In this document: positions 20,243-49,316 of the stretch, in pieces
How the letters are laid out: the number at the start of each line of letters is the position of its first letter
How positions within the stretch are numbered: the stretch's first letter is position 1
DNA from: Catellatospora paridis
GTDB taxonomy: Bacteria > Actinomycetota > Actinomycetes > Mycobacteriales > Micromonosporaceae
DNA length: 64,000 nt
Direction of reading: 5' to 3'
NCBI RefSeq assembly: GCF_009720365.1
Contig: NZ_ML769321.1
Span: forward strand, 1-64,000
Notes under the pieces: generated by a model
What the model saw: the letters and a program-made list of their open reading frames with translations, nothing else
Databases searched by the model: none
What the model was told of the DNA's origin: nothing
Program-made: the position numbers and the translations under genes

Positions 20243-23200
20243 ATGCCCGAGCCCGAGCACGGCCCGCTGACGGCGGCCCAGGAGCGACTGTGGTTCCTGG
20301 ACCGGCTCGACCCCGGCGACGCCGCGTACCACATCTCGACGACCAGCCGCCTGCGCGGCGAGCTGGACCGCGAGCTGCTGGCGCGGGCGTTCGACGACGC
20401 GACCCGCCGGCACGAGAGCCTGCGCACCCGCTTCGGCGACCACGACGGCGTGCCGTACCAGCAGATCCAGCCGCCCCGGCCGACGCCGATCGAGTACACC
20501 GACCTGACCGGCGAACCCGACCCGCAGGCCGCGGCACGTCAGCGGGTCGAGGAACTACTGGCCCGGCCGTTCGACCTGGCGCAGGGCCACCTGATCCGGG
20601 TCGGCCTGCTGCGGCTGGCCGCCGACGAGCACGTGCTGTGCATGGTGGTGCACCACATCGTCGGCGACGGCTGGTCGATGAACCTGCTCTACCGGCAGGT
20701 CACCGAGTCCTACCGCGGCATCGAGCCGACCCCGCCCGCGGTGCGCCACCTCGACCACGCCCGCGACCGGCGCACCGCCGACACCTCGGCGCTCGACTTC
20801 TGGACGGGTGTGTTCGCCGACCCGCCGACGCTGGACCTGCCGCTGGACCGGCCACGCCCCCCGGTGCGCACCTCGTCCGGCGGCGTGGTGCTGCGCGAGT
20901 TCCCGGGCGAGATCCAGCAGGCCGTGCAGGCCGCCGCCCGGCAGCTGCGCTGCACCCCGTTCATGCTGCTGGTGACGCTGTACGAGCTGACCCTGGCGCA
21001 GTTTGCCGGGCAGGACGACATCTGCGTGGGGACCCCGGTCGCGGGGCGTGACGACGTCGCGCTGGAGGCGGTCTTCGGCTACTTCAGCGGCATGCTGGTG
21101 CTGCGCGCCGACCTGTCCGGCGACGTGAGCTTCCGCGACCTGGTGCTGCGCACCCGCAAGTCGTTCATGGAGGCGTTCGCGCACCCGGAGATCCCGTTCG
21201 AGGACCTCACCGCGCGGCTGCACCTGCCCCGCGACCTGAGCCGCAACGCGCTTTTCCAGGCCACCTTCACCCTGCACACCACCATGAACATCTCGGCGAC
21301 GGCGACCGAGGGCTTCGGCGGCCTGGCCGCGGAGGCGTTCGACTCCGGCGCGCCGCACGTCAAGACCGACGTCGCGATGGACGTGCAGACCAGCGTGGAC
21401 GCGATGGACGTGGTGCTGACGTACAACAGCGACCTGTTCGACGCGGCGACCGCGCACGCGCTCGCCGACCGGTTCACCGCGCTGCTGCACGCCGTGCTCG
21501 CCGACCCCGACCTGCGGGTGCGCGAGCTGCCCCTGGTCGACGACGACACCGGGGCCGAGCTGCTGCGCCTGGCCACCGGCCCCGAACTGCCGCAGGCCGA
21601 GCCGCTGCTGTCCCGGATCGAGCACACCGTCGCGGCCACGCCCGACGCGGTCGCACTGATCAGTGGCGGCGAGCGGGTGTCCTACCGCGACCTGTGGATG
21701 CGGTCCGGCGAGCTGGCCGACGCGCTGCGGACCGCCGGGGTCGCCCCGGGCGGGCTGGTCGGGGTCAGCGTGCCGCGCGGGCCGGACCTGGTCGCATCGC
21801 TGCTGGCAGTGTGGCGGGCCGGGGCCGGTTACGTCCCGGTGGACCCGCAGCTGCCCGTCGCCCGCCGCGAGGAGATGACCGCGCAGGCCGCGCTCGCCGC
21901 GGTGCTCACCCCGCAGGGCGTCGCGCCGGGCGCGCCCGTCCCGGCCGCCGCACCCGGCGCGGCATACGTGCTGTTCACCTCCGGATCCACGGGTACGCCC
22001 AAAGCCGTGCTCGTCGGCCGCGCGGCCCTCGACGACCGCACCGCCTGGATGGCCGACGCCTACGCCCTGACCGCCGCCGACCGGGTCGTGCAGTTCGCGG
22101 GTATCGGTTTCGACACGCACGCCGAGGAGATCTGGCCGACCCTGGCCACCGGCGGCACCCTGGTGCTGCTGCCCGACGGCCCGCAGTCGCTGCCCGAGGT
22201 GCTCGCCGCCGACCCCGCCATCACCGTGCTCGACCTGCCCACCGCCTACTGGCAGGCGCTGCTGGACGTGGTGCCCGCCTGGCCCGCCGCGCTGCGCCTG
22301 GTCATCCTCGGCGGCGAGCAGGTCGACGCCGCCGCGGTCGCCGCCTGGCGCGACCGGCACGGCGACCGGATCCGCCTGGTCAACACGTACGGCCCGACCG
22401 AGGCGACGATCATCGCGACCGCCGCCGACCTCGGCCCCGCCGACACGACCCGCCGCCCGCCGATCGGCCGCCCGCTGGCCGGGGTGCGCGCCTACGTGCT
22501 CGACGCGGCCGGCCGCCTCGTGCCGCCGGGTGCGGCCGGCGAGTTGTGCCTGGCCGGGGCCGGGCTGGCCGACGGCTACCTGGGCCGACCCGACCTCACC
22601 GCCGAGCGTTTCGTGGCCGACCCGTACGGGCCGGGCCTGATGTACCGCACCGGCGACCGGGTCCGGCTGCTGCGCGGCGAAGGCACGCTGGAGTTCCTCG
22701 GCCGCGTCGACCGGCAGCTCAAGGTGCGCGGCGTACGCGTCGAGCCGGGCGAGGTCGAAGCCGTCCTCACCGGACACCCGCAGGTCGGGCAGGTGGCCGT
22801 GACCGCGGTCGGCGACACCCTGGTCGGTTACGTCACCGGTGCCGCGGGCGCGGACGAAGTGCGCGCGTACGCCGCATCGCGGCTGCCCGCGCTGCTCGTG
22901 CCCAGCGTGATCGTGGTGCTGCCCGAGCTGCCGCTGACCCGCAACGGCAAGGTCGACCTGCGGGCGCTGCCCCCGGTGACCGTCGGCGACGAGGTCCACG
23001 CCGCGTACGTCGCGCCGCGCACCGACGCCGAGGCGCTGGTCGCCGGGATCTTCACCGAGCTGCTGCCGGTGGACCGGGTCGGCGCGGGCGACGACTTCTT
23101 CGCCCTGGGCGGCCATTCACTGCTGGCCACCCGGGTGATCGCCCGGTTGCGGGCCGCCGTCGACCTGGATCTGCCCATCCGGGCGCTGTTCGACCGGCCC

Positions 23201-23314
23201 ACCGTCGCCGGGTTCGCCACCGCCGTCGAGGAGGCGCTCATCGCCGAGATCGACCGGCTCACCGAGGACGAGGCCGCGGCACAGCTCGCGGCGGCCGGAC
23301 AGGGAGCGCCGTGA
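20243..23314 (+). CDS. NRPS module C-A-PCP, substrate unassigned
   Basis: 1023 residues. Condensation domain ~1-440 with intact H137-HIVGDG; adenylation domain ~460-940 (FTSGSTGTPK near 578, NTYGPTE, GRVDRQLKVRG, NGKVDL); carrier domain with phosphopantetheine Ser959 (LGGHSLL). The specificity pocket read by alignment to GrsA is D-T-E-D-I-G-T-I-I-K; I do not know an exact match, and the acidic E/D pair loosely recalls codes for basic amino acids. The N-terminal C domain means the module receives an upstream acyl or peptidyl group. GGGGGAGG lies before the ATG. It is the first gene of the operon, and its stop overlaps the next start (GTGA). Confidence 0.95.
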   Translation: MPEPEHGPLTAAQERLWFLDRLDPGDAAYHISTTSRLRGELDRELLARAFDDATRRHESLRTRFGDHDGVPYQQIQPPRPTPIEYTDLTGEPDPQAAARQRVEELLARPFDLAQGHLIRVGLLRLAADEHVLCMVVHHIVGDGWSMNLLYRQVTESYRGIEPTPPAVRHLDHARDRRTADTSALDFWTGVFADPPTLDLPLDRPRPPVRTSSGGVVLREFPGEIQQAVQAAARQLRCTPFMLLVTLYELTLAQFAGQDDICVGTPVAGRDDVALEAVFGYFSGMLVLRADLSGDVSFRDLVLRTRKSFMEAFAHPEIPFEDLTARLHLPRDLSRNALFQATFTLHTTMNISATATEGFGGLAAEAFDSGAPHVKTDVAMDVQTSVDAMDVVLTYNSDLFDAATAHALADRFTALLHAVLADPDLRVRELPLVDDDTGAELLRLATGPELPQAEPLLSRIEHTVAATPDAVALISGGERVSYRDLWMRSGELADALRTAGVAPGGLVGVSVPRGPDLVASLLAVWRAGAGYVPVDPQLPVARREEMTAQAALAAVLTPQGVAPGAPVPAAAPGAAYVLFTSGSTGTPKAVLVGRAALDDRTAWMADAYALTAADRVVQFAGIGFDTHAEEIWPTLATGGTLVLLPDGPQSLPEVLAADPAITVLDLPTAYWQALLDVVPAWPAALRLVILGGEQVDAAAVAAWRDRHGDRIRLVNTYGPTEATIIATAADLGPADTTRRPPIGRPLAGVRAYVLDAAGRLVPPGAAGELCLAGAGLADGYLGRPDLTAERFVADPYGPGLMYRTGDRVRLLRGEGTLEFLGRVDRQLKVRGVRVEPGEVEAVLTGHPQVGQVAVTAVGDTLVGYVTGAAGADEVRAYAASRLPALLVPSVIVVLPELPLTRNGKVDLRALPPVTVGDEVHAAYVAPRTDAEALVAGIFTELLPVDRVGAGDDFFALGGHSLLATRVIARLRAAVDLDLPIRALFDRPTVAGFATAVEEALIAEIDRLTEDEAAAQLAAAGQGAP

Positions 23315-26300
23315 CCGACATCGCCGAGAACCCGCAGGCGGTCGCGCTGTCGGCGACGAAGCGCTCGCTGCTGGCCGCGCGGCTGAAGCAGAGCGCCGCC
23401 GCCCCGGCCGCGATCACGCCGCGGGCGGCGGGCGGGCCGGTGCCGCTGTCGCACGCCCAGGAGCGGCTGTGGTTCATGGAGCAGTTCGCGCCGGGCACGG
23501 CCGCGTACACGATCCCGGTGGTGCTGCGGGTGCGCGGTGCGCTGGACCCGGCGGTGCTGCGGGCGGCGCTGAACGCCGTCGCGGCCCGGCACGAGAGCCT
23601 GCGCATGCGGTTCGGTGCGACCGCCGATGGCGAGCCGGTGCTGCACCTCGACGACATCGTCGACGTCGACCTGCCGGTGCTCGACGTGGCCGGTGACGAC
23701 GCCGCCGAGCGCGAGGAGTTCGTGCACCGCGCCGTGCAGACCCGCCTCGCCGAGCCGTTCGACCTGGCCGCCGGCCCGCTGCTGCGCGCCGCCCTCTACC
23801 ACCTCGGCGCTGACGAGCACGTGCTGATGCTCGCCGTGCACCACATCGTCTGCGACGGCTGGTCCGTGGACGTCCTGGTCGGCGAGCTGGTCGCGTACTA
23901 CGACGCGCTTGCCACGGGCGCACCCGAGCCGCTGACGCCGCTGGCGGCGCAGTACGGCGACTTCGCGGTCTGGCAGCGTGCCCGCGTCGTCGACGGTGCG
24001 CACGAGCGGGACGTGGCGTTCTGGAAGGAGCGGCTGACCGGGGTGCCGCCGCTGGACCTGCCGACGGACTCGCCGCGCCCGGTCGAGCAGACGTTCGCCG
24101 GTGCGGCGCACGGCGTGACCCTCGACGGGGAGCTGGTCGGGGCGTTGCAGCGGCTGGCCCGCGAGCACGGGGCGACGCTGTACATGACGCTGCTGGCGGC
24201 GTACGCGGCGGTGCTGGCCCGGCATGCCCGTGCCGACGACTTCGCGATCGGCTCGCCGCAGGCCGGGCGCACCCACGCCGAGCTGGAGCCGCTCATCGGC
24301 ATGTTCGTCAACATGCTGGTCACCCGGATCGACGCGGCCGGCGACCCGACGTTCGCGCAGCTGCTGGGCCGGGTCCGGGAGGCCACCCTGGACGGCTACG
24401 CCCACCAGGACCTGTCGTTCGAGCAGCTGATCACCGAGCTGAACGTGGTCCGCGACGTCGGCCGCTCGGCGGTGTTCCAGGTGGTGTTCGCGCTGCAGAA
24501 CTACACCGCGCCGGGCCGGGCCTCGGCGACGGGGCTGAGCGTGTCGCCGTTCGGCTCCCGGGCCGTGGCGACCCGGTTCGACCTGGAGCTGTCGCTGCTG
24601 GAGGGCGTGGACGGGCTGTGGGGTTCGTTCACGTACAACACCGACCTGTTCACCGCCGACACCGTCGCCCGCCTGGCCGACAGCTTCGAGCAGCTGCTCA
24701 GCGCGGTCGTCGCCGACCCGCACCGGCCGCTGAGCCGCCTGTCGACCGTCACCGGCGCCGCCCGCGAGCAGGTGCTGACCGGCTGGAACGACACGGCCGC
24801 CGCGTTCCCCGACACCGCCACGCTGCACGGGCTGATCCAGCGGCAGGCCGCGGACACTCCGCACGCCCCGGCGCTGACCTTCGAGGGCGACACCCTCACC
24901 TACGCGCAGCTGCTGAGCCGGGCGCACCGCATCGCGCACCGGCTGCGCGAGCACGGCGCGGGACCGGGCCGCCTGGTCGCGGTGTGCGCCGAGCGCAGCC
25001 ACGACCTGGTGGCCGGGCTGCTCGGCGTGCTGATCTCGGGCGCGGCTTACCTGCCGCTGGACCCGGAGTATCCGGCCGAGCGGCTGGCGTTCATGCTCGA
25101 CGACGCCGACGTGGCCGCCGTGCTCACCGCGGGGGACGCCCGCACGGTGCTGCCGGACACGGACCGTCCCGTGCTCGCCCTCGACGACGCGGCCACCTGG
25201 GACGGCGTTCCCGAGACCGCGCCCGAGCCGCTCGCCGGGGCCGACGACGTCGCCTACGCCATCTACACGTCCGGCTCGACCGGCCGCCCGAAGGGCGTGC
25301 TCAACGGGCATCGCGGCATCGTCAACCGGCTGCACTGGATGCAGCGCCGCTACGGCCTGTCCGCCGCGGACACGGTGCTGCAGAAGACCCCGGCCGGGTT
25401 CGACGTGTCGGTGTGGGAGTTTTTCTGGCCGCTGCTGGCCGGAGCGCGGCTGGTGCTGGCCCGGCCCGGCGGCCACAAGGACGCGGCATACCTGCTTGAC
25501 CTGATCGTCGCCGAGGGTGTGACGACCCTGCACTTCGTGCCGTCGATGCTGGGCATGTTCCTGGCCGAGTCCGACGTGGACCGGTGCGGCTCGCTGCGGC
25601 TGATCGTGTGCAGCGGGGAGGAGCTGCCCGTCGACCTGGCGACCCGGACCCTGGCCGCGCTGCCCGGCGCGCAGCTGCACAACCTGTACGGGCCGACCGA
25701 GGCCGCGATCGACGTCACCGCGTACCACTGCACACCGCAGCACCTGGCCGGGCTGGCTCGGGTGCCGATCGGCGCGCCCATCGACAACATGGCCGTCTAC
25801 GTGCTCGACGAGCACGGCGAACCGCTGCCCGTCGGGGTGCCCGGCGAGCTGCACCTGGCCGGTGTCGGCCTGGCCCACGGCTACCTGAACCGGCCCGAGC
25901 TGACCGCGGAGAAGTTCGTCACCGGCCTGTCCGGGCGGCGCCTCTACCGCACCGGTGACCTGGCCCGGTGGCGGCCCGACGGCACGATCGACTTCCTCGG
26001 CCGCATCGACGGCCAGGTGAAGCTGCGCGGCCTGCGCATCGAGCTCGGCGAGATCGAGGCGGCGCTGCGCGACCAGCCCGGCGTCCGCGAGGCGGCCGTC
26101 GTGGTCCGCGAGGACTCACCCGGCGACAGGCGTCTGGCCGCCTACCTCGTGGTCGACGCCGAACCCGACACCGCCGAGGTGCGGGCGGCCCTCAAGCGGC
26201 GGCTGCCCGACTACATGGTGCCCACCGCATACGTGGTGCTCGACGCGCTCCCGCTGAGCCCGAGCGGCAAGCTGGATCGCCGGTCGCTGCCCGCGCCGCA

Positions 26301-28848
26301 GCGCGGCCGGGACGCCAACGCCGCGTTCGAGGCCCCGGCGACGCCGACCGAGGTGACCGTCGCCGCGATCTGGGCCGAGGTGCTCGACGTGCCGCAGGTC
26401 GGCCGCGACGACGACTTCTTCGACCTCGGCGGGCACTCGCTGCTCGCCACGCAGGTCATCGCGAAGCTGCGCCGGGCGGTCGGCGCGGGCGTGTCCGTGA
26501 TGGACCTGTTCAAGAACCGCACGGTACGCGAGCTGGCCCAGCTCATCGACGTGCCGGAAGACCAGCGCGGCCCGCGGGCCCTGGTGCACGAGCTGACCCG
26601 CCCGGTGCCGTCCGCGCAGCTGGTGCGCAGCCTGGTCTGCGTGCCCTACGGCGGCGGCAGCGCCGTGGTGTACCAGCCGCTCGCCGACGCGCTGCCCGCC
26701 GGGCACCGGCTGTTCTCGGTCGCCATCCCCGGCCACGACATCGGCCTCGACGAGGCGGCGCTGCCCTTCGACGAGCTGGCCGAACGCTGCACCGTCGAGA
26801 TCATGGAGAAGGTCGCCGGACCGGTCGCGCTGTACGGCCACTGCGGCGTCGGCTCCGCGCTGACCGTCGAGATCGCCCGGCGGCTCGAACAGCGCGGCCG
26901 CGACCTCGAAGCGGTCTACATCGGCGCGATCTTCCCGTTCGCCCGGCCGCAGAGCAAGGTGTGGATGGCCCTGTCGCGGATCACGAAGATGGAGTCGCTG
27001 CGCTCGGACAAGGCGTACGCCAACTGGCTGACCTCCATGGGCGTCGACATGAGCGACATCGAACCCGGCCAGGCCCGCCAGATCATCCGCAACATGCGCC
27101 GGGACTCCGACAGCGCCGAGGAGTACTTCACCGAGCTGATGCACAGCGGCGCGGAACGGCTGCGGGCCCCGATCATCGCGGTGGCGGGCGAACGCGACCC
27201 GGCGACCGAGTTCTACCCCGAGCGCTTCAAGGAGTGGCACTTCCTCACCGACCGGGCCGCGGTCGTCGTGCTCGACGAGGCCGGGCACTTCTTCCTCAAG
27301 TGGCGGGCCGACGAGCTGGCCGAGATCGTCACCACGGTCGACCCCGCGGTCACCGCCGAGCAGCCGCAGCCGCTGACCCGCCCGGAACGCGGCGAGCGGG
27401 CGAGCTGGTGGCTGCACGACACCTCGCAGGCCACGAGCCGCGTCGTCACCGCCGGTCCGCAGCCCAGCATGGGCCGCTTCCTCGCGGTCGCGTTCGCGCA
27501 GCTCATCTCCATCCTCGGCTCGACGCTGACCGACGTGGCGCTGCCGCTGTGGGTGCTGCAGCAGACCGGGTCGCTGCTCGACTTCTCGCTGCTCGCGGTC
27601 GCCGGGCTGGTGCCGGGCCTGATCGTGCTGCCGGTGGCCGGGGCGATCGTCGACCGGTACAGCAGACGGGCCGTCATGCTCTGCGGCGACGTCGGCGCGG
27701 GCGGCACCCAGCTCGTCCTGGGCCTGCTGCTGTGGACCGGATCGCTGCAGGTGTGGCACATCTACCCGCTGATCGTGCTGCTGTCGGTGTCGCTGACGTT
27801 CCAGCGCCTGGCCTACGGTTCGGCGATCCCGCAGCTCGTGCCCAAGCAGTACCTGGGCCACGCGAACGGCGTCGTGCAGATGATCGGCGGCGTGGCCACC
27901 ATCATGATGCCGATGCTGTCGGTGGCGCTGCTCGCCGTGATCGACCTCGGCGGCATCCTGATCATCGACGTGCTCAGCTACGCGGCCGCGATCGTCATCG
28001 TGCTGCTGGTGCGCTTCCCGCGCACGCTGGCCTGGCGGCGGCGGGAGAGCCTCGGCGCGGAGATCCGCGAGGGCTTCCGCTTCTCCTGGGGCAATCGCGG
28101 CTTCCGGGCCATGCTCGGGTTCTTCATGGGACTCAACGTGTTCCTGTCGCCGCTGTTCCTGATGATGACGCCGCTGGTGCTCGCGTTCGGCGGGCTCGAC
28201 CAGGTCGCGCAGGTGTCGGTGGCGGGCGGTGTCGGCGCGTTCCTCGGCGGCCTCACGATGAGCGTCTGGGGCGGCCCACGGCACCGGCGGCTGTTCACCG
28301 TGCTGTGCTGCACCCTGGTGCTGGCCGTGTTCTGCCTCGTCATCGGGCTGCGGCCGACGCTGTGGGTGATCGCGATCGGCTCGTTCGGCATCTCGATGTG
28401 GCTGGTGCTGCTCAACGGCGTCTACACCACGATCGTGCAGGTCAAGGTGCCGCAGCGGTTCCACGGCCGGGTGTTCGCGATCAACACGGTGATCGCCTGG
28501 TCGACGCTGCCGCTCGGCTGGACGCTGGTCGGGCCGGTCGGCTCCAGCATGCTGGAACCGCTGATGGCCGACGGCGGCGCGCTCGCGAGCACGGTGGGGC
28601 GGGTCATCGGCACCGGCGAGGGCCGCGGCATCGGCCTGCTCTACCTGATCCTCGCGGTCTGCATCGCGGCCGTGGTGCTGGTGTCCATGCGGATTCCGCG
28701 CATCGCCCGCTTCGACGACGAGGTCCCCGACGCCCGCCCCGACGACCAGGTCGGCCTGGAACTGCTACGCAGCCGCAATGCGCAGCAGGACGGTGGACCG
28801 GCTGCCGACGTGAGCCGGCCGCGGGACCGCGAGAAGGTGGCCGCGTGA
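23311..28848 (+). CDS. NRPS C-A(Ser)-PCP-TE fused to an MFS transporter
   Basis: 1845 residues. C domain ~35-480 with H177-HIVCDG; A domain ~500-980 whose pocket reads D-V-W-H-V-S-L-I-D-K, essentially the serine code; PCP Ser1043 (LGGHSLL); thioesterase ~1105-1360 with nucleophile elbow GHC1178GVG, so Cys replaces the usual Ser, and with the acidic (GERDP) and His (EAGHFF) members present. After a short linker an MFS-type domain with about 12 membrane segments runs from ~1387 to 1800. One chain therefore loads Ser, releases the product and probably exports it. GTG start overlaps the previous stop. NRPS-MFS fusions are known as an annotation class but their function is little studied. Confidence 0.93.
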   Translation: MTDIAENPQAVALSATKRSLLAARLKQSAAAPAAITPRAAGGPVPLSHAQERLWFMEQFAPGTAAYTIPVVLRVRGALDPAVLRAALNAVAARHESLRMRFGATADGEPVLHLDDIVDVDLPVLDVAGDDAAEREEFVHRAVQTRLAEPFDLAAGPLLRAALYHLGADEHVLMLAVHHIVCDGWSVDVLVGELVAYYDALATGAPEPLTPLAAQYGDFAVWQRARVVDGAHERDVAFWKERLTGVPPLDLPTDSPRPVEQTFAGAAHGVTLDGELVGALQRLAREHGATLYMTLLAAYAAVLARHARADDFAIGSPQAGRTHAELEPLIGMFVNMLVTRIDAAGDPTFAQLLGRVREATLDGYAHQDLSFEQLITELNVVRDVGRSAVFQVVFALQNYTAPGRASATGLSVSPFGSRAVATRFDLELSLLEGVDGLWGSFTYNTDLFTADTVARLADSFEQLLSAVVADPHRPLSRLSTVTGAAREQVLTGWNDTAAAFPDTATLHGLIQRQAADTPHAPALTFEGDTLTYAQLLSRAHRIAHRLREHGAGPGRLVAVCAERSHDLVAGLLGVLISGAAYLPLDPEYPAERLAFMLDDADVAAVLTAGDARTVLPDTDRPVLALDDAATWDGVPETAPEPLAGADDVAYAIYTSGSTGRPKGVLNGHRGIVNRLHWMQRRYGLSAADTVLQKTPAGFDVSVWEFFWPLLAGARLVLARPGGHKDAAYLLDLIVAEGVTTLHFVPSMLGMFLAESDVDRCGSLRLIVCSGEELPVDLATRTLAALPGAQLHNLYGPTEAAIDVTAYHCTPQHLAGLARVPIGAPIDNMAVYVLDEHGEPLPVGVPGELHLAGVGLAHGYLNRPELTAEKFVTGLSGRRLYRTGDLARWRPDGTIDFLGRIDGQVKLRGLRIELGEIEAALRDQPGVREAAVVVREDSPGDRRLAAYLVVDAEPDTAEVRAALKRRLPDYMVPTAYVVLDALPLSPSGKLDRRSLPAPQRGRDANAAFEAPATPTEVTVAAIWAEVLDVPQVGRDDDFFDLGGHSLLATQVIAKLRRAVGAGVSVMDLFKNRTVRELAQLIDVPEDQRGPRALVHELTRPVPSAQLVRSLVCVPYGGGSAVVYQPLADALPAGHRLFSVAIPGHDIGLDEAALPFDELAERCTVEIMEKVAGPVALYGHCGVGSALTVEIARRLEQRGRDLEAVYIGAIFPFARPQSKVWMALSRITKMESLRSDKAYANWLTSMGVDMSDIEPGQARQIIRNMRRDSDSAEEYFTELMHSGAERLRAPIIAVAGERDPATEFYPERFKEWHFLTDRAAVVVLDEAGHFFLKWRADELAEIVTTVDPAVTAEQPQPLTRPERGERASWWLHDTSQATSRVVTAGPQPSMGRFLAVAFAQLISILGSTLTDVALPLWVLQQTGSLLDFSLLAVAGLVPGLIVLPVAGAIVDRYSRRAVMLCGDVGAGGTQLVLGLLLWTGSLQVWHIYPLIVLLSVSLTFQRLAYGSAIPQLVPKQYLGHANGVVQMIGGVATIMMPMLSVALLAVIDLGGILIIDVLSYAAAIVIVLLVRFPRTLAWRRRESLGAEIREGFRFSWGNRGFRAMLGFFMGLNVFLSPLFLMMTPLVLAFGGLDQVAQVSVAGGVGAFLGGLTMSVWGGPRHRRLFTVLCCTLVLAVFCLVIGLRPTLWVIAIGSFGISMWLVLLNGVYTTIVQVKVPQRFHGRVFAINTVIAWSTLPLGWTLVGPVGSSMLEPLMADGGALASTVGRVIGTGEGRGIGLLYLILAVCIAAVVLVSMRIPRIARFDDEVPDARPDDQVGLELLRSRNAQQDGGPAADVSRPRDREKVAA

Positions 28849-28891
28849 ACGCGCGGGCGATGTGGGCTCAACGCGGCCGAGGGAGCGCGGC

Positions 28892-30418
28892 ATGAGCGCC
28901 CTCGCGGCCGCACGGGCCGCTCGTGCCGCGGGACGGGTCGCGCTGACCGTGCCGCAGTTGCTGGCGGCGCGAGCTGCCAAGCAGCCGGAACACGTGGCGG
29001 TCACGCAGGGCTCGGGCACGCTCGACCTGGCCACGTGGCAGCGGCGCACCCAGGCCGTCGCGGCCGGGCTGCGGGCGGCCGGGATCAGGCCCGGCGACCG
29101 GGTCGCGCTGGTGTACGGAGCCCGCGACTGGATCGCCTACGCGACGGCGTACACCGGAGTGCTCGCGGCCGGGGCCGTCGCGGTGCCGCTGTCGACCCGC
29201 AACGCCGCCGCCGAACTGGACTTCATGCTGCGGCACAGCGGCGCGGCCGCGGTGCTGCACGGCCCGGACGCGGTGCTGCCCGCGGTGCCGATCCCGCTGG
29301 TCTGGGCCCCGGCCGCGGTCGCCGCGCTGCCCGACGCCGAGCCGCTGCCCGGCCCCGGCCCGGCCGACCCGGCGCAGATCCTCTACACCTCCGGCACCAC
29401 CGGTCGGCCCAAAGGGGTCACCGCGGTGCACGCCAACCTCACCCACGGCTGCCGCATCGACCCGCCCCTGCGCAGGCTCGCCCACTCGAAGCAGTTCCTG
29501 CACGCGTTCCCGATCGGCACCAACGCCGGGCAGACGATGCTGCTCAACGCGCTGGACGCGCACGCCGGGATGCTGGCCACGGCCCGGTTCGCGGCCGCGC
29601 ACTTCGCCCGGCTCGTCGCCACGCACCAGGTGGGCAGCGTGTTCGTGGTGCCCGCGATGGCGATCGAGCTGCTGTACTCCGGGGCGCTGGGCGAGCACGA
29701 CACGTCCTGCGTGAAACTGTTCGGCTCCACCGCCGCCGCCCTGCCGCCCGCGATCGCGGCCGGGCTGGCCGCCGCGCTGCCGCAGGCCACCATCGTCAAC
29801 TACTACACCTCGACCGAGGCCGCGCCGACGCAGACCAGCATGGTCTTCCACCCCGACCGGCCCGGCGCGTTGGGCAAGGCGACCGGCGGCGGCGAGCTGC
29901 GCATCCTCGCCCCCGACGGCACGCCCAGCCCGCCCGGCGAGGTCGGCGAGGTGTGGCTGCGGGCCGCGGGCGCCGCCCGGTCCTACCACGACGATCCGGA
30001 CGCGACCCGGTCGGTGTTCCGCGACGGCTGGACCCGGATGGGCGACGTCGGCCGGCTCGACGCCGACGGTTACCTGTACCTCGCCGACCGGGAGAGCGAC
30101 GTCATCAAGAGCGGCGCGGACAAGGTGTCCACGGTCGCCGTCGAGGCCGCACTGCACGAGCACCCCGACATCGCCGACGCGGCCGTGCTGGGCCTGCCCG
30201 ACCCGGTGCTCGGCCGGGTGCCCGCCGCGGTCCTGGTGGCCACGCGGCCGCTGACCCTGGCGGAAGTGCGGGCCTTCCTCGCCACCCGGCTGGCCGCGCA
30301 CGAGCAGCCCAGCCGCCTCGCCCACGTCACCGAACTGCCCCGCAACGCCGGGGGCAAAGTCGTCAAGCACCGGCTCCGGGCGTTGTTCGACCGGCCCGAC
30401 CAGGAGGGGACCCCATGA
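28892..30418 (+). CDS. AMP-dependent acyl/aryl ligase
   Basis: 508 residues, a stand-alone adenylate-forming enzyme of class I: P-loop YTSGTTGRPKG (~167-177), YYTSTEAAP, a 'GDVGRLDADGYLYLADRESDVIKSGADKVS' hinge region and a C-terminal lysine (GGKVVKH). It resembles acyl-CoA/aryl ligases more than NRPS A domains. In this operon it most likely activates a carboxylic acid starter and passes it to the free carrier protein encoded at 33609. GAGGGAG precedes the ATG at 28892; the 43 bases after the NRPS-MFS gene are the only sizeable gap in the operon. The stop overlaps the next start (ATGA). Confidence 0.92.
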   Translation: MSALAAARAARAAGRVALTVPQLLAARAAKQPEHVAVTQGSGTLDLATWQRRTQAVAAGLRAAGIRPGDRVALVYGARDWIAYATAYTGVLAAGAVAVPLSTRNAAAELDFMLRHSGAAAVLHGPDAVLPAVPIPLVWAPAAVAALPDAEPLPGPGPADPAQILYTSGTTGRPKGVTAVHANLTHGCRIDPPLRRLAHSKQFLHAFPIGTNAGQTMLLNALDAHAGMLATARFAAAHFARLVATHQVGSVFVVPAMAIELLYSGALGEHDTSCVKLFGSTAAALPPAIAAGLAAALPQATIVNYYTSTEAAPTQTSMVFHPDRPGALGKATGGGELRILAPDGTPSPPGEVGEVWLRAAGAARSYHDDPDATRSVFRDGWTRMGDVGRLDADGYLYLADRESDVIKSGADKVSTVAVEAALHEHPDIADAAVLGLPDPVLGRVPAAVLVATRPLTLAEVRAFLATRLAAHEQPSRLAHVTELPRNAGGKVVKHRLRALFDRPDQEGTP

Positions 30419-33400
30419 CCCAGGCACTCGACGGCATCCCCGTCACCCTCGCCCAGCAGGGCATCTGGTTCACCGAACGGGTCGGTGACGCCGGCTCGGC
30501 ATACCGGCTGGCGGTCGCGGTGACCCTGCCCGGCACGGTGGACCGGCTGCGATGGGAGCAGGCGTGGGCCGAGGTCGTCGCCCGGCACCCGGCGCTCGCC
30601 GTCGCGGTGGCCGACGCGGACGGCGAACCGCTGCTGCGGCCCGTGCCGCCCGCGCCGGTCGAGCACCACGACGTCACCGGCAGCGCACGCCGCACCGACG
30701 CGGACGCCACCGTGGCCGGTGGGACGGCGCGGGCCGACGACGGGCTCGACGCGGCTGTCGCGCAGGTGCTGGCCAGCCCGTTCGACCTGGTCACCGGGCC
30801 GCTGGCCCGATGCGTCGCGCTGCACGCCGAGGGACGCACCGTCGTGCTCGTCGTCGCCCACCACCTGGTCTTCGACGGGGCGTCCAAGGACGTGCTGGTC
30901 GGTGACCTGCTCGCCGCGTACGACGGCCGCCCGCTGCCCTCCGGATCGCTGACCGCGCTCGGCGACGCCGCCCGCGCCCAGGCGGCGCGGATCGCCGAGG
31001 CCACCCCCGCGGCACGGGAGTTCTGGTCGGCGCGTCCGGCACCGGTCGACGAGCTGGTGCTGCCGTACGCGACGGGCGCGCCCACGGCCGCCGAACCCGA
31101 CGTGCGGGTGCCGTTCACGCTTGGCCGCGACCTCGACGCCGCGCTCACCGCGGCGGCGGACGCGCTGGGGCTGACCCGGTTCGAGCTGCTGCTGTCCGCC
31201 GTGCACACCGTGCTGGCCCGCTACGGCAACGCGATCACCTCGGTCGCCGTGGACCTCACCACCCGCACCCCGGAGCTGTCCGGCGAGATCGGCATGTGGG
31301 TCAACGAACTGCCGGTCACCGTGACCGGCGACCTGGCACTGCCCTGGGCCGAGTACGCCCGCGCCGTGCGCGCCGAGGCCCGTGCCGTGTACGCCCACCG
31401 CGAGGTCCCGTACGGCCGGGCCGTGCCCGGCCTGCTGCCCCGACTGTCGTTCGCCCCCGTGTCGATCAGCTACCGCCGCCGCACCCAGGCCACGGCGGAG
31501 GTGGACTGGCTGCTCACCCCGCCGGCGATCCGGACCGCGCTGCACCTGCACCTGGTCGACTCCGCCGACGGGCTCACCGGCTCGGTGCACGTGCCCGCTC
31601 GCCACGCGGCCACCGCCGACCGGTTCGCCGGGCACCTGCGCACCCTGCTGGCCGCGGCACTGGCCCACCCGCGGACCCCGGTCGGCGACCTGCCCCTGCT
31701 CACCGCCGCCGAGCAGGCCGAACTCGCCGCCGGCAACACCACCGCCCGCCCGCGCCCCGCCGCGACCGTGCTCGACCTGGTACGCGACCAGGCCGCGCGC
31801 ACCCCCGACGCGCTCGCGGTCACCGGCCCGGACGGCGAGCTGACCTACCGCGAGTTGGTCGACGCGGCCCACCGCATCGGCAACGGGCTGCGCTCGCGCG
31901 GCGTCGCCGACGGCGACCTGGTCGGCCTGTGCGCCCGTCGTGGCACGGAGCTGGTCGCCGGGGTGCTCGGCATCCTGGCCGCCGGCGCGGCATACCTGCC
32001 GCTGGACCCGGCGTACCCGGTCGCGCGGCTGGAGTTCATCGCCGCCGACGCGGGCGCGAAGGTGATCCTCGGGCACTCCGGCGGGCCGCTGGACGTGCTG
32101 GCGCTGGACAGGCTGGCCGCGTTCGCAGCCGAGCCGGTCGCCGCACCGGCCGTCGCCGCCGACCCCGACGCGCTCGCGTATGCGATCTACACCTCCGGTT
32201 CCACCGGCCGACCCAAGGGTGTCGAGATCGGACATGCCGCGCTGGCCAATCTGATCGCGGCGTTCGCTGAGCTGCTCGGCGCACGGCCGGAGCACCGCTG
32301 GCTCAATCTGACCTCGCTGTCGTTCGACATCAGCGGCCTGGAGCTGTTCCTGCCGCTGACCACCGGTGGGCAGGTGGTCGTCGCGTCCGACGCGGCCACC
32401 CGCGAGGGGGGCGCGCTCGACCGGCTCATCCGTGACAGCGGCGCCACCCACGTGCAGGCCACCCCGTCGACCTGGCGGATGCTGCTCGACGCCGGGTTCG
32501 CCGGTGCGCCGATCACCGCGCTGTGCGGCGGCGAGCCGCTGCCGCTGCCACTGGCCCAGCGCCTGCGCGCCCGCACCGGGCGGCTGCTCAACGTGTACGG
32601 CCCGACCGAGACCACGATCTGGTCCACCGCCGCGGAGATCCCGGCCGACCCGGCGCGGATCACCATCGGCGGCCCGCTGGCCAACACCACCCTGCACGTC
32701 CTCGACCCCGACCTGCGGCCGCTGCCGCCCGGCGTGCCCGGCGAGCTGTGCATCGGCGGGGTGGGCCTGGCCCGCGGCTACCGCGACCGGCCGGAGCTGA
32801 CCGCGCAGCGGTTCGTGGTGGACGCGGCCGGGCGGCGGCTCTACCGGACCGGTGACCTGGTGCGGCTGGCCGCCGACGGCGAGGTCGAGTTCCTGGGCCG
32901 GGTCGACGACCAGATCAAGCTGCGGGGCCACCGCATCGAGCTGGGCGAGATCGAGCAGACCCTGCTCGGCGCGCCCGGCGTCGGCCAGGCCGCAGTCGCG
33001 GTCCGCGGCTGCACCCTGGTGGCGTACCTGATCGGCGCGGGTGAGGTGCCCGAGATCCGCCGCCATCTCGCGGGCAGCCTGCCCCGCTACATGATGCCCG
33101 GCCAGTACGTGTGGCTGGACCGGCTGCCGCTGACCCCGAACGGCAAGCTCGACCGCAAGGCCCTGCCCGAGCCGCCCGGCCTCGCGGACGGCACGTCCGA
33201 CACGGACGCGCAGCTCGGGGAGCCCGTCGAGGACCTGCTCGACGGCATGGCGGACCTGTCCGCCCTCGACGGGGTGTGCGCCGCCGCACCGACGACCGCG
33301 CCGCGGACCCTCGCCGCGCCGTCGAGCGCGAGCGACGGCCCTGCGGTCGAGGAGCGGATGGCTGCCGGTGCGGGCGAGGCCGACCTGATCGCGGGCGTCA

Positions 33401-33612
33401 CGGCGATCTGGCGGGAGGTGCTGCGCATCGAGGACATCGCGCCCGACGACACCCTGTTCGACCTGGGCGGGCACTCGCTGACGATCATGCAGATCACGGC
33501 ACGCATCCGGGACGCGTACGGCGTCGAGGTGCCCTTCGACGTCTTCTTCGACACCCCGACGGTCGAGGGCATCGCCGACTCGATCGCAGAGCTCCGCGAG
33601 GAGGAGTCGTGA
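30415..33612 (+). CDS. NRPS module C-A(Gly)-PCP
   Basis: 1065 residues. C domain ~8-430 with H149-HLVFDG; A domain ~450-925 (YTSGSTGRPKG at ~592-602) with pocket D-I-L-Q-L-G-V-I-W-K, a glycine code like those of DhbF-type domains; PCP Ser1021 (LGGHSLT). Between A and PCP lies an unusually long linker, ~70 residues rich in Ala, Asp and Glu (about 925-995), which is normally ~20 residues. No thioesterase. Although encoded after the TE-bearing protein it must act before it, so assembly is not collinear. ATG overlaps the ligase stop; its own stop overlaps the carrier-protein GTG. Confidence 0.95.
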   Translation: MTQALDGIPVTLAQQGIWFTERVGDAGSAYRLAVAVTLPGTVDRLRWEQAWAEVVARHPALAVAVADADGEPLLRPVPPAPVEHHDVTGSARRTDADATVAGGTARADDGLDAAVAQVLASPFDLVTGPLARCVALHAEGRTVVLVVAHHLVFDGASKDVLVGDLLAAYDGRPLPSGSLTALGDAARAQAARIAEATPAAREFWSARPAPVDELVLPYATGAPTAAEPDVRVPFTLGRDLDAALTAAADALGLTRFELLLSAVHTVLARYGNAITSVAVDLTTRTPELSGEIGMWVNELPVTVTGDLALPWAEYARAVRAEARAVYAHREVPYGRAVPGLLPRLSFAPVSISYRRRTQATAEVDWLLTPPAIRTALHLHLVDSADGLTGSVHVPARHAATADRFAGHLRTLLAAALAHPRTPVGDLPLLTAAEQAELAAGNTTARPRPAATVLDLVRDQAARTPDALAVTGPDGELTYRELVDAAHRIGNGLRSRGVADGDLVGLCARRGTELVAGVLGILAAGAAYLPLDPAYPVARLEFIAADAGAKVILGHSGGPLDVLALDRLAAFAAEPVAAPAVAADPDALAYAIYTSGSTGRPKGVEIGHAALANLIAAFAELLGARPEHRWLNLTSLSFDISGLELFLPLTTGGQVVVASDAATREGGALDRLIRDSGATHVQATPSTWRMLLDAGFAGAPITALCGGEPLPLPLAQRLRARTGRLLNVYGPTETTIWSTAAEIPADPARITIGGPLANTTLHVLDPDLRPLPPGVPGELCIGGVGLARGYRDRPELTAQRFVVDAAGRRLYRTGDLVRLAADGEVEFLGRVDDQIKLRGHRIELGEIEQTLLGAPGVGQAAVAVRGCTLVAYLIGAGEVPEIRRHLAGSLPRYMMPGQYVWLDRLPLTPNGKLDRKALPEPPGLADGTSDTDAQLGEPVEDLLDGMADLSALDGVCAAAPTTAPRTLAAPSSASDGPAVEERMAAGAGEADLIAGVTAIWREVLRIEDIAPDDTLFDLGGHSLTIMQITARIRDAYGVEVPFDVFFDTPTVEGIADSIAELREEES

Positions 33613-33860
33613 CCGCAGCCACCCTCGAAGCCGACCTCGCCATGCTGGTCGCCCAGGCCAGCGAGGGCGTCATCACCGCCGCCGACGCGCTCGCCGAGCG
33701 GGAGTCGCTGGGCCTTCTCGGCCTGACGTCGCTGGGGTTCCTGCGTCTCATCCACGCAGTGGAGCGCGGCTACGGCGTCGTGCTCGACCTCGACGACGAC
33801 GTGTCGTTCATGGACACCGTCGCGAGCCTCGCCGCCCACCTGCGCGAGCAGGGCATCTGA
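33609..33860 (+). CDS. free-standing acyl/peptidyl carrier protein
   Basis: 83 residues with a single carrier-protein fold; the phosphopantetheine site is Ser41 in GLTSLGFLRLI, with Thr where Asp is usual (DSL). The acidic third helix (LDLDDDVSFMDTVASLAAHL) is typical. It should hold the starter acyl group loaded by the AMP ligase and present it to the stand-alone condensation protein or to an NRPS C domain. GTG start overlaps the NRPS stop; TGATG overlap with the next gene. Confidence 0.9.
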   Translation: MTAATLEADLAMLVAQASEGVITAADALAERESLGLLGLTSLGFLRLIHAVERGYGVVLDLDDDVSFMDTVASLAAHLREQGI

Positions 33861-35329
33861 TGCGCCGGGTCGCCGTACGCGGCACGCCGGTCGCCGACGG
33901 GCCGCTGACCTGGGGTCAGCACGCCATCTGGGCGGCGATCGGCCGGACCGCCCCGAACGACCACTACTTCAACCTGACCCGGGTGCTCACCCCACCGGAG
34001 CGCTGCCGCCCGCTGCCCGTCGACGACGCGCTGGACCGGCTCGGCGCGGCGCTGAGCCGCCATCCGACGCTGCGGACCCGGATCGTCGCGGACGCGGTGG
34101 CCGGGTCCGGAGATCCTGGCCGTAGCGATGACCGGTCCGAGGCGACCGTCCTCGCCCCGCGCACAGCCCCGGCGGGGCCGGTCGTGCCCGGCGAGCCGGT
34201 CCGGCAGGAGCTGCTCGCCGAGGTCCTGGTCACGGTGCATACGGTGGAAGCGGCTGACGAGTTTGATGCGGACCGGGCCGCGGACGGCCTCGCCGCGGAT
34301 CTGGCGGGCACCGCGTTCGGTTACCGGACCGAGCCGCCGGTGCGTATCGGGCTGGTGCTCGTCGGCGGCCTGGTGGCCAGGGTCGTGCTGGCGCTGTGTC
34401 ATCTGGCCACCGACGGCCACGGGGCCGATATCCTCCTGCGGGACGTCAGGCTGGCGCTGCTGGCCCGCACCGGGCCACCGCCCGGCGACCCGCTCGCCGT
34501 CGCCGTCGAGGAGGCGTCCGACGCGGGCCGGGCTCGCAGCGACGCCGTGATCGGCACCTGGCGCGAGGCTTACCGGGCGCTGCCGCCGAGCATGTTCACC
34601 ACCGAGCGCGCCGAGCCGCAGCCGGTGCGCTGGTGGGTCGGCCGGCTCACCTCGCCAGCCCTTGGCCTGGCCGCGGCCGCGCTCGCCGCCCGGCACCGGA
34701 CCAGCGTGTCGTCGGTGCTGCTGGCGGCCACCGCGGCACTGGTCGCGGCGGACGGCGGCGGGGACCGGGCGGCCGTGCTGACCATCGTCGGCAACCGCTA
34801 CGACCCGGCCCGGCGGGACCTGGTGGCGACGCTGTCCCAGGAAGGCCTGTTCACCCTGGACACGGCTGCCGCCGACTTCGCCAACCTGCTGCGGCCCGCG
34901 TGGCGGGAGAGCCTGCGGGCGTACCGGTCCGGCAGCTACGACCAGGCGGCGCTGGACGCCGCCCTGGCCGCGGTGAGCGCCGAGCGTGGCACGACTGTGC
35001 ACCCGATGTGCTGCTTCAACGACATGCGCCTGGTCGACCTGCCGCCCGGCGCTCCGCCGACGGCCGAGCAGGTCCGCACCGCCCGCGCCGACTCCGCGTT
35101 CGCGTGGGCGTCGCCGCAGCCGCAGGTCGCCTGCCGGTTCTGCGCGCACGTGACCGCCGACGGGCCCGCGCTGACCTACCAGGTCACCGGCGATACCCGG
35201 TTCCTGCCGCCGGCGCGGCTGGAGGCGTTCGTGCTGACCCTGGAGGACCTCGTGGTGTCGGCCGTGGACGGTCCCGCGCCCCTGGCGGCCCTGCCGGCGC
35301 GGCTCGGGTCTGCGGTGGTGGCGGCGTGA
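33860..35329 (+). CDS. stand-alone condensation-domain-like protein
   Basis: 489 residues with the C-domain fold pattern: an N-terminal 'LTWGQHAIWAAIGR' strand-helix, the active-site region C180-H181-L-A-T-D-G at mid-chain, and the latch region (TTVHPMCCFNDMRL). The first His of HHxxxDG is Cys, but the second, catalytic His is kept, so activity is possible. Free condensation proteins join carrier-bound substrates or transfer groups at the start or end of assembly; this one probably works with the carrier protein encoded just upstream. Start ATG is in the TGATG overlap. C180 makes the enzyme class somewhat uncertain (condensing, transferring or structural). Confidence 0.85.
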   Translation: MRRVAVRGTPVADGPLTWGQHAIWAAIGRTAPNDHYFNLTRVLTPPERCRPLPVDDALDRLGAALSRHPTLRTRIVADAVAGSGDPGRSDDRSEATVLAPRTAPAGPVVPGEPVRQELLAEVLVTVHTVEAADEFDADRAADGLAADLAGTAFGYRTEPPVRIGLVLVGGLVARVVLALCHLATDGHGADILLRDVRLALLARTGPPPGDPLAVAVEEASDAGRARSDAVIGTWREAYRALPPSMFTTERAEPQPVRWWVGRLTSPALGLAAAALAARHRTSVSSVLLAATAALVAADGGGDRAAVLTIVGNRYDPARRDLVATLSQEGLFTLDTAAADFANLLRPAWRESLRAYRSGSYDQAALDAALAAVSAERGTTVHPMCCFNDMRLVDLPPGAPPTAEQVRTARADSAFAWASPQPQVACRFCAHVTADGPALTYQVTGDTRFLPPARLEAFVLTLEDLVVSAVDGPAPLAALPARLGSAVVAA

Positions 35330-37203
35330 GGCTCACCGCGTACGCCCGGGCCTGCGCCGTCGACCCCGGCAAGACGCTCGGTTTCGTGGTCGGGGCCGCG
35401 GACGGCCACCCGGCCGGGCTGGTCACCGTCGTGGACGTGCCGACCGGCCGGGTCTTGGCCAGCGACACCGTCGACGGCCCGCACTGGACGCTCGACGTCC
35501 CCGAGGACTGGCCCAGCTCGCTGTACCGGGCCGCGTTCCGCGGCGACGGCAGCTCCGCCACGGCGACGGTCGCGGACGGGCCCGACGCCGACGCGCACTT
35601 CGTGGTACGCGGCAGCGGCGACGCGGACGTACTCGTGTCGGTGCCGTTCCTGACCTGGCAGGCCTACAACCGGGCGGGCGAGCCGGGGCACGGCCTCTAC
35701 TACGCCGAGGAGCCGACGCGGGCCGCCAGGGTCAGCTTCGACCGGCCCGGCGGCGGGCCACCGCCCCAGGAGTGGGAGCACGGGCTGCTGCGCTGGCTGC
35801 GGGGCAGCGGACACCGTGTCGAGTACTGCGCCAACCTGGATCTGCACGACCAGCCCGAGCTGCTGGCCCGCCACCGGCTGCTCGTGATCAACGGGCACGA
35901 CGAGTACTGGACCTGGGAGATGCGCGACCACGTCGAGGCGTACGTACGCGACGGCGGCAACCTGGCGATCTTCGCGGCGAACACGTGCTGGTGGCAGATC
36001 CGGCTGGAGGACGGCGGCCGCACCATGGTCTGCCACCGCGACGCCGTCACCGACCCGATGGCGGCCGTCGACCCGTCGCGCGTCACCGTCGAATGGTCCA
36101 GCGCCCCGGTGAACCGGCCCGAGAACGCGCTGACCGGGGTCAGCTACCGCCGCGGCGCGGGCACCTGGGGTGAGCACATGCCGAGGATGCGCGAGGAGGC
36201 CTACCGGGCCCGGTTCGCGGAGCACTGGGCGTTCGACGGCACCGGCCTGCACGACGGCGACGAGTTCGGCCGGGGCGCGCTCGGCTACGAGACCGACGCC
36301 GCCGACTTCACCGAGGTCGACGGTGTGCCGCGGGTGACCGGCCGGGACGGCACCCCGCCCGACTTCGTCATCCTGGCCACCGCCGACCTGCGCCACTGGC
36401 GGCACTACGGGCAGGGCGGCCATGCCACCATGGGCGTGCACCGGCTCGGCCAGGGCACGGTGTTCACCGCCGCGACCGTGAACTGGGGCAGCGCGCTCGG
36501 CGACCCGGTCGTGGACCGGATCACCCGCAACGTCCTGGACCGGCTCGGGCGGCCCGCGCCCGTCGAGTTCGAGCCGATCGGACCGGCGGTGTCGGGTGCC
36601 GCGCTGGCGGCCTGCGAGGGCCTGCTGTTCGCGGCGGCCGGCGGCGTGCTGCGGGTTCGCGAGCTGTGCGCGCAGAACCTGCCGTGGCGTGAGATCGACA
36701 CCGCTCCGGACCTGGTCGCGCTGGGTTCACCGCGGGAGGCGTACCGCGGCATGCCGTCGGGTCTGATCGGGGTGACCCGCGACGGCCAGGTGGTGTATCG
36801 CGACCCGGTGCCCGACAGAGGCGATTGGTCGGTGCTCGGTGACGCGCCCGCCGGGACGGTGGCGCTGGGCTGCGTCAACGCCACGTTCTTCGCGGTCGCG
36901 GACGGCGCACTGTGGTCGCGCACCGCGGCGTCGCTGGCCGACCGCATCGGCTCCTGGCAGGTCGTCGACGTGGCCGAGGGCGTCGTCGCGTTGACCGGCC
37001 TGGCCAGCAACCTGTTCGCCGCGACCGGCGACCGGCTGCTGTCGCGTCCGCCCGTGGACGGCCCAGCCCCGTGGACGGACCTTGGCCCGGCCGCGGACGT
37101 ACGGTCGCTGACCGGCGCGGCCGGCTGGCTGGTCGCGGGTGGTACGACCCTGCGCCGCCGCCCGGCCGTCAGTTCGGCGCCGGCCTGGTACGGCCATCGC
37201 TGA
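35326..37203 (+). CDS. N,N-dimethylformamidase large-subunit-like protein
   Basis: 625 residues. The N-terminal ~75 residues are an all-beta module; ~80-415 matches the core of the DMFase beta-subunit family (VPFLTWQAYNRAGEPGHGLYY, LLVINGHDEYWTWEMRDHVEAYVRDGGNLAIFAANTCWWQ, the 'GRDGTPPDFVILATADLRHW' segment and GQGTVFTAATVNWGSAL); ~425-625 looks like a short beta-propeller with repeated 'LFAAAGGVLRVRE' type blades. DMFase hydrolyses formamides at an iron centre bound by Tyr/Glu; the homologous ligands cannot be assigned here by eye. GTG overlaps the previous stop, so it belongs to the NRPS operon and may deformylate, hydrolyse or bind the product. Confidence 0.8.
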   Translation: MRLTAYARACAVDPGKTLGFVVGAADGHPAGLVTVVDVPTGRVLASDTVDGPHWTLDVPEDWPSSLYRAAFRGDGSSATATVADGPDADAHFVVRGSGDADVLVSVPFLTWQAYNRAGEPGHGLYYAEEPTRAARVSFDRPGGGPPPQEWEHGLLRWLRGSGHRVEYCANLDLHDQPELLARHRLLVINGHDEYWTWEMRDHVEAYVRDGGNLAIFAANTCWWQIRLEDGGRTMVCHRDAVTDPMAAVDPSRVTVEWSSAPVNRPENALTGVSYRRGAGTWGEHMPRMREEAYRARFAEHWAFDGTGLHDGDEFGRGALGYETDAADFTEVDGVPRVTGRDGTPPDFVILATADLRHWRHYGQGGHATMGVHRLGQGTVFTAATVNWGSALGDPVVDRITRNVLDRLGRPAPVEFEPIGPAVSGAALAACEGLLFAAAGGVLRVRELCAQNLPWREIDTAPDLVALGSPREAYRGMPSGLIGVTRDGQVVYRDPVPDRGDWSVLGDAPAGTVALGCVNATFFAVADGALWSRTAASLADRIGSWQVVDVAEGVVALTGLASNLFAATGDRLLSRPPVDGPAPWTDLGPAADVRSLTGAAGWLVAGGTTLRRRPAVSSAPAWYGHR

Positions 37204-41417: not shown

Positions 41418-41450
41418 CGCCTGCCCGGCCGGGTGCGGTCAGGGCAGGCG
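41418..41450. terminator. bidirectional terminator hairpin
   Basis: CGCCTGCCC (41418-41426), 15-base loop, GGGCAGGCG (41442-41450) between the nuclease-like gene and the convergent oxidase gene. The right arm runs into the last codons of the oxidase. Confidence 0.65.
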
Positions 41451-42953: not shown

Positions 42954-43150
42954 GTCGAGCACACTACTAGAAACAAACCTAAATGTAGACCGCCTGCGGC
43001 TGGGTGCCCGGATGCGGACGGTCACCTCGTCAGGGCACCGTCAGGAATCCGGCTCCTGCCGTACGAAGTGCGTCAACGCGGGCAGGAAGGTCAGGTCCGG
43101 GGCGCGATCGTGGGTGCGCACACGCACCCGATCGACGGTTGGTGGACTCG

Positions 43151-49238: not shown

Positions 49239-49284
49239 GGAAGGGCACCTTCACAACGCCATGCGTAGAGGAAGGTGCCCTTCC
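49239..49284. repeat. palindromic intergenic element after kdpC
   Basis: GGAAGGGCACCTTC (49239-49252), 18-base loop, GAAGGTGCCCTTCC (49271-49284): a perfect 14-bp inverted repeat starting five bases after the kdpC stop. The layout (AAGG...CCTT arms with a GTAGAG in the loop) matches a dispersed repeat family I remember from Micromonospora-type genomes. It may end transcription of kdpFABC in part before the kdpD gene. Confidence 0.75.
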
Positions 49285-49316
49285 CAACCCCTTGGACCCG
49301 TCGAAGACAGGAAGCC

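Follow-up and report, generated by a model that had tools for sequence, protein, structure and literature searches.

A conserved seven-gene nonribosomal peptide synthetase operon of Catellatospora paridis, proposed to produce and export a short acylated peptide

Organization of the operon

The window analysed here comprises positions 1 to 64,000 (64,000 nucleotides) of contig NZ_ML769321.1 of Catellatospora paridis (RefSeq assembly GCF_009720365.1), and contains at positions 20243-37203, on the plus strand, an operon of seven genes (g1 to g7; Table 1) for nonribosomal peptide synthetase (NRPS) modules and accessory proteins. On balance, we consider it likely that the operon encodes the biosynthesis and export of a short acylated peptide, acyl-Gly-X-Ser, with a separate acylation system (g3, g5 and g6) and an amide hydrolysis by g7. 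The coding signal and the coordinates were confirmed for all seven genes. Five of the six junctions overlap (by 4, 4, 4, 1 and 4 bp); only g2 and g3 are separated, by 43 bp to the better start of g3 (ATG) or by 13 bp to its alternative GTG start. The tight packing and the domains that an earlier note had listed for these genes agree with the Pfam matches and the coordinates.

The modules comprise condensation (C), adenylation (A) and peptidyl carrier protein (PCP) domains, and g2 additionally a thioesterase (TE) and an exporter domain of the major facilitator superfamily (MFS). The C, PCP and TE motifs are intact in the operon of the window and in nine relatives; with these modules and a TE at the end of the line, the operon has the make-up expected of an NRPS gene cluster. 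No Pfam match to MbtH, methyltransferase or epimerase domains was obtained within the operon; one MbtH is encoded elsewhere in the same genome, at G000:C2:562533. A scan of the operon for promoters and terminators gave a signal no higher than in shuffled sequences.

Table 1. Coordinates of the operon genes and of other features discussed in the text; positions refer to the window, except for the last row
Feature	Positions	Strand	Assignment	Basis
g1	20243-23314	+	NRPS module C-A-PCP	Pfam; A-domain code
g2	23311-28848	+	NRPS C-A(Ser, predicted)-PCP-TE fused to MFS exporter	Pfam; A-domain code
g2, TE	26629-27327	+	TE domain	
g2, Cys1178	26842-26844	+	presumed TE nucleophile	
g2, MFS	27478-28581	+	MFS domain	
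g3	28892-30418	+	stand-alone AMP-forming acyl/aryl acid ligase; alternative start GTG 28862	Pfam
g4	30415-33612	+	NRPS C-A(Gly, predicted)-PCP, proposed initiation module; long A-PCP linker 33148-33396	Pfam; A-domain code; C-domain clade
g5	33609-33860	+	free acyl carrier protein; candidate phosphopantetheine Ser41 in LTSLGF	Pfam
g6	33860-35329	+	free-standing condensation-fold enzyme; CHxxxDG with His181	weak Pfam; Foldseek
g7	35326-37203	+	amidohydrolase-like domain of DMFA2_C fold, 35479-36501; beta-propeller-like C-terminal part, 36559-37200	Pfam; Foldseek
GH3 (NagZ-like) gene	18267-19871		extra paralogue, just upstream of the operon	
Three co-directional genes	37387-41401		803, 219 and 316 aa; no Pfam match	Pfam
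FAD oxidase gene	41439-43025			
kdp region	49275-55278		two KdpD-type sensor kinases around a response regulator	
E1-alpha, E1-beta and E2 genes of locus L102	18225-21074 (in L102)	-	pyruvate-dehydrogenase-like; adjoin the A-less C-PCP gene	

Conservation of the operon

A scan with g6 gave 133 relatives, and the best 80 of these 133 were analysed as loci, 66 of them with full flanks. Within the genus, g6 orthologues (76-88% identity) were found in five of ten other genomes, and there all seven genes are present in the same order, which bears out the gene-order conservation that the earlier note had left to be checked. More distant versions of the operon were detected in the genomes G053, G088, G089 and G070; in G089, g7 is encoded on the strand opposite to the other genes and g3 was recovered as a fragment of 368 aa. 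Matches to g5 are weak across the loci (30 bits and up), and in G053 and G088 the gene is represented by weak matches only. Among the 80 loci, g3 is present in 70, a DMFA2-like g7 in 69, and the TE and the MFS domain in 42 each; for the loci with full flanks the counts are 60 (g3), 58 (g7), 55 (both) and 39 (TE). A missing g2 is partly due to its position outside the fetched flank, as in the Streptosporangium cluster. In one Streptomyces genome (contig G204:C1, loci L137-L140) the operon occurs twice, and g7 is present in just one of the copies.

Similar gene sets occur in many actinomycete genera, and the combination is therefore not a rare one; the families, whose names we take from the genera, are presumably Micromonosporaceae, Streptomycetaceae and Streptosporangiaceae. 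Thus, the gene set described in the earlier note as unusual was confirmed in its composition, and not as a rarity. Ligase, carrier, free C enzyme and hydrolase occur together across the loci, and the pairwise distances of five proteins correlate (rho 0.60-0.84, each value reached by 0 of 500 permutations; shared species history was not removed). Distances and motifs were taken from the window, the 80 loci, G003, G009, G089, G088 and G070, with matches under preset bit scores dropped.

An MbtH-like gene is present in 36 of the 80 loci and was not found in the other 44, whose flanks are partly short; Pfam confirmed it in all three loci tested. The earlier note had also recorded the lack of MbtH, methyltransferase and epimerase genes: none was matched in the operon, as it said, but a missing MbtH is shared with other loci. 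Five of eight extended clusters, those of Kitasatospora and Streptomyces, have the order g1-g2-g3-g4-g5-g6; three of these contain g7 and, according to Pfam, an MbtH gene between g4 and g5, and the other two (CB01249a and col6) have an MbtH match and no g7.

Adenylation specificity and order of the modules

The A-domain codes are DTEDIGTIIK for g1, DVWHVSLIDK for g2 and DILQLGVIWK for g4; spurious codes from ligase matches were disregarded, and no g1 code was obtained for col6. We take the g4 code to be that of Gly. The g2 code differs at two positions from DVWHFSLVDK, the Ser code of enterobactin synthetase as given for characterised synthetases in the accessible part of PMC3795760, and the domain is accordingly read as Ser-specific. 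The earlier assignments of Ser and Gly were thus reproduced when the codes were read again.

The residue that had been left as unknown (X, activated by g1) is probably a basic amino acid, because the g1 code forms an acidic pocket (acidic residues at positions 239 and 278), as does the code of the Orn module for turnerbactin, DHB-Orn-Ser (DHB, dihydroxybenzoate), which also has two acids at these positions (DSDDGGLVDK; PMC3795760, seen in part). Identical or near codes were found in g1 of nine relatives and of four Kitasatospora/Streptomyces clusters, and G070 has two such modules within one protein. A comparison of the g1 A domain with solved structures gave many NRPS matches, none of which pointed to a specificity.

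In a tree of 38 C domains, built without reference starter C domains, three groups are resolved: one unites g4 with the C-PCP proteins that lack an A domain (support 1.0), one holds the elongation domains (0.993) and one g6 (1.0). Furthermore, eight of the 80 loci (seven of Streptosporangiaceae, one of Streptacidiphilus) have an open frame that carries both codes, Gly ahead of X. The order starter, Gly (g4), X (g1), Ser (g2) is supported by the grouping in the tree and by this fusion of Gly with X, and it is predicted from these sequence relationships. The C-terminal tail of g1 and the N-terminal tail of g2 resemble paired linkers. Hence, g4 likely initiates although it lies downstream of g1 and g2, and the non-collinear gene order proposed in the earlier note is upheld.

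Genes proposed to supply an acyl starter

A free ligase (g3) and a free carrier (g5) adjoin the putative initiation module (g4), an arrangement expected of a starter system. In daptomycin biosynthesis the ligase and the carrier are encoded by DptE and DptF. Initiation of the daptomycin type involves a free ligase, a free acyl carrier protein and a special first C domain (PMC9113097, seen in part), and the operon resembles it in the free AMP-forming ligase, the free carrier and the divergent C domain of the first module; it differs in that only three residues are incorporated, an additional free C enzyme is encoded and the TE is fused to an MFS domain, and the C domain of g4 was compared without reference starter domains. 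Ligase, acyl carrier protein and free condensation enzyme are also separate proteins in the Oaa pathway, in which a free ligase, carrier and C domain form fatty-acid amides (PMC13142362, seen in part); here, in contrast, they accompany three NRPS modules, a TE and a hydrolase.

The nearest solved relatives of g3 are a fatty-acyl-CoA synthase (8weu) and a feruloyl-CoA synthetase (8wev), followed by FadD13, and salicylate- and dihydroxybenzoate-AMP ligases rank far below these. This ranking argues against an enterobactin-like siderophore, i.e. an aryl starter on Gly-basic-Ser that the TE would join into a trimer for export through the MFS domain, which we regard as quite improbable. It would be consistent with the turnerbactin structure and its acidic Orn code (PMC3795760, in the part seen), and the EntF model aligns with the C-A-PCP portion and some of the TE of g2, though weakly (595 bits where 2400 are required, other NRPS models scoring higher); however, no match to isochorismate or dihydroxybenzoate families was obtained in the operon or in the scanned flanking genes, which are not all genes of the window.

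The free-standing SgcC5 and CmnI act as stand-alone enzymes, and g6 resembles them. With 21.7 bits against the Pfam Condensation model it scores below the curated cut-off of 30.6. Its AlphaFold model (mean pLDDT 78.1; shallow alignment of 8 sequences) has SgcC5 (4znm; E 2.6e-19) and CmnI (9uay) as its best fold matches, both in the top three rows of the Foldseek output, in which NRPS C domains also match; g6 differs from both in its low identity (16-18%) and in having Cys for the first His of the motif. CHxxxDG is present in 81 of 83 g6 sequences, the other two reading CHLAADY and SHVAADG. The predicted stand-alone C fold with a putative catalytic His and DG fits a free-standing condensation enzyme.

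Thioesterase and exporter fusion

Release by the TE and export by the MFS domain, as proposed in the earlier note, are supported. The nucleophile position of the TE is a Cys in the window and its nine relatives (10/10) and in all 42 loci with a TE, with Asp and His also kept. TE and MFS matches lie in one stop-free frame in 39 of the 42 loci, and in the remaining three there is one stop between the match ends. A query with the TE-MFS part (1e-60) against an even draw of the class matched in 23 of 394 genomes and 12 of 138 genera; two of the 23 (G380 and G439) match the MFS part only. Nothing was found in the literature searched on an MFS domain together with NRPS and thioesterase domains.

The Cys-TEs of obafluorin and sulfazecin form strained rings. 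The invariant Cys, Asp and His of the g2 TE might likewise close a beta-lactone or small lactone on the terminal Ser rather than hydrolyse the chain, but we think this doubtful: a Cys-TE may simply hydrolyse, and the same Cys is present in loci with an Asp-like last module, which offers no side-chain hydroxyl for a ring.

The dimethylformamidase-fold protein

g7 matches the DMFA2_C family of Pfam with 252.3 bits (cut-off 27). Its AlphaFold model (mean pLDDT 75.1; shallow alignment of 10 sequences), in which the C-terminal third is beta-propeller-like, matched dimethylformamidase (DMFase; 6lve/6lvb) and N-acetyl-(R)-beta-phenylalanine acylase (8huy) in Foldseek. The TM-scores are low (0.34-0.39 by query length; root-mean-square deviation 8-10 A), and the sequence match therefore weighs as much as the fold match.

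DMFase has a 2-Tyr-1-Glu iron site (Y399, Y440, E521) and a catalytic H519, and its large subunit is inactive without the small subunit (PMC7686228, seen in part). In the alignment, H519 and E521 correspond to H191 and E193 of g7; the pairing of Y399 with Y114 comes from a segment that scores just 1.5 bits, and Y125 is the inferred equivalent of Y440. These putative active-site residues (Y114, Y125, H191, E193) are invariant in all 74 g7 sequences. g7 shares with the DMFase large subunit (6lvb) and the acylase the DMFA2_C domain and, by alignment, the putative equivalents of Y399, H519 and E521; it differs in its length (625 vs about 775 aa), the propeller-like end and the low TM-scores, and Pfam finds no small subunit among the seven operon genes, to which this search was confined. 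We do not class g7 as a DMFase, because of this missing subunit gene and since the metal is only putative; from its sequence and model it is a probable iron-dependent amide hydrolase. No report of a dimethylformamidase together with an NRPS gene cluster was found in the literature searched.

Two other roles of g7 have to be weighed. The first is a prodrug logic, in which g3 and g5, with the C domain of g4 or with g6, add a removable N-acyl group and g7 strips it, such that a free peptide of the Gly-X-Ser type is the active form; we hold this to be possible, if rather unlikely. The g7 model matches the acylase as well as DMFase, the active-site residues are kept throughout, and ligase and hydrolase occur together in most full-flank loci, as given above. 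However, no signal peptide was recognised by eye at the N-terminus of g7, and the removal would hence be intracellular, before export; in addition, g7 is missing in 8 of the 66 loci. In the second, g7 would serve self-protection or catabolism, inactivating the product by hydrolysis and taking no part in its biosynthesis. The position of g7 at the end of the operon would agree with such a role, as would its absence from some otherwise similar loci, its reversed orientation in G089, and the presence in G088 of a similar hydrolase on a separate contig (54% identity). Yet in the window the last 4 bp of g6 belong to g7 as well, and the g7 distances correlate with those of g6 (rho 0.76) and g3 (rho 0.77); we consider this role unlikely.

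The Streptosporangiaceae variant

In three extended clusters (Streptosporangium, Herbidospora and Nonomuraea), g4 is replaced by an A-less C-PCP protein, split into two open reading frames in one of them, and adjoining genes encode E1-alpha, E1-beta and E2. Two of the three have a fused Gly-X dimodule. The terminal module has the code DFTKIGHVGK, which we take to be Asp-like. An E1-alpha gene is present in 36 of the 66 full-flank loci, and in L102 the E1/E2 proteins fall well short of the housekeeping-model cut-offs. Counts of C-PCP matches over the loci were disregarded, since g4 is picked up among them. In L099 and L143-L144, pyruvate-dehydrogenase-like E1/E2 genes are likewise found next to the A-less C-PCP gene.

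Priming of a carrier protein by E1/E2 has been proposed, with pepteridine and the glycolyl unit of naphthyridinomycin as cases (PMC5384830, seen in part). The Streptosporangiaceae relatives resemble these systems in having E1/E2 genes beside C-PCP genes, and such genes are absent from the Catellatospora operon; by this analogy, Gly and a glycolyl unit may be exchanged between the variants.

Predicted pathway and product

On the basis of the computed domains, motif residues, conservation and gene order and of the predicted folds of g6 and g7, we infer a route to acyl-Gly-X-Ser; the starter, the identity of X, what g6 acylates, which substrate and metal g7 uses and the form released are part of that inference. 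The ligase g3 would activate a carboxylic acid and load it onto g5, and the initiating C domain of g4 would join the acyl group to Gly. The chain would then move to g1 (X, probably basic) and to g2 (Ser), and the Cys-nucleophile TE of g2 would release it as free acid, ester or small lactone, for export by the fused MFS domain. The SgcC5/CmnI-fold enzyme g6 may transfer a carrier-bound acyl group onto a second nucleophile, or take part in the transfer of the starter, and g7 may trim an acyl or amide group. No product for this gene set was found in the literature searched, which did not cover MIBiG, and the earlier statement that no described pathway has this combination was not refuted within this scope; a nonribosomal peptide of Catellatospora was not found there either, the genus being met, in the parts of the sources seen, in reference lists only.

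Several observations weigh against this route. A starter C domain in g4 leaves g6, as a second acyl-using C enzyme, hard to place. The Gly module of the fused Gly-X proteins has an elongation-type C domain and is not an exact counterpart of g4; in the chains made there, Gly would follow the C-PCP unit. Nine further E1-alpha loci show the Gly code with no X code in view, and for DTEDIGTIIK no match was found in the literature searched. As for g7, its model is weak around Y125 (pLDDT <50 at residues 118-132), the same-family relative G070 keeps g1 to g6 without it, and three of the eight full-flank loci that lack it (L129-L131) also lack g3; because of these absences, hydrolysis cannot be essential to every variant.

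A wider proposal, which we offer tentatively and think rather improbable as a whole, is a widespread, undescribed family of short peptides with an exchangeable initiation unit: Gly via g4, or a unit delivered by E1/E2, possibly glycolate (giving an ester), on the A-less C-PCP. A DMFase-fold iron amidase would remove the acyl or amide group installed by ligase, carrier and free C enzyme, and the TE-MFS protein would couple release to export. Beyond the earlier note, the analysis adds the wide conservation, the MbtH- and E1/E2-bearing relatives, the evidence for initiation by g4, the Cys-TE and the amidase-like nature of g7.

Neighbouring genes

The three co-directional genes downstream of g7 were rejected as members of the cluster: they lie next to the operon in the window and in G003 and G001, and G009, G010 and G005 gave no match at this place (in G005, the contig ends 2.4 kb past g7). 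Within the genus, a copy of the upstream glycoside hydrolase family 3 (GH3) gene with at least 83% identity accompanies the operon in all six genomes that have it; the five genomes that lack the operon have no such copy. The FAD oxidase gene shows the same pattern (at least 78% where the operon is present; of the five genomes lacking it, G006 has a relative of 44%), and no GH3 match was found near the operon in the G053, G089, G088 and G070 stretches, and the GH3 gene was therefore rejected as a pathway gene. A role of it in self-protection is possible; the history of the clade explains the distribution as well. The kdp region listed in Table 1 lies farther downstream in the window.

Significance

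From a compact operon that is kept across three families one would expect a small molecule of general function, and a DMFase-fold enzyme would enter secondary metabolism with it. The fusion of TE and exporter allows asking why a release enzyme is joined to an exporter, and the exchange of the Gly-loaded module for a dehydrogenase-linked one, and of Ser for an Asp-like code, represents a natural experiment. The operon is small enough to be cloned and expressed as a whole.

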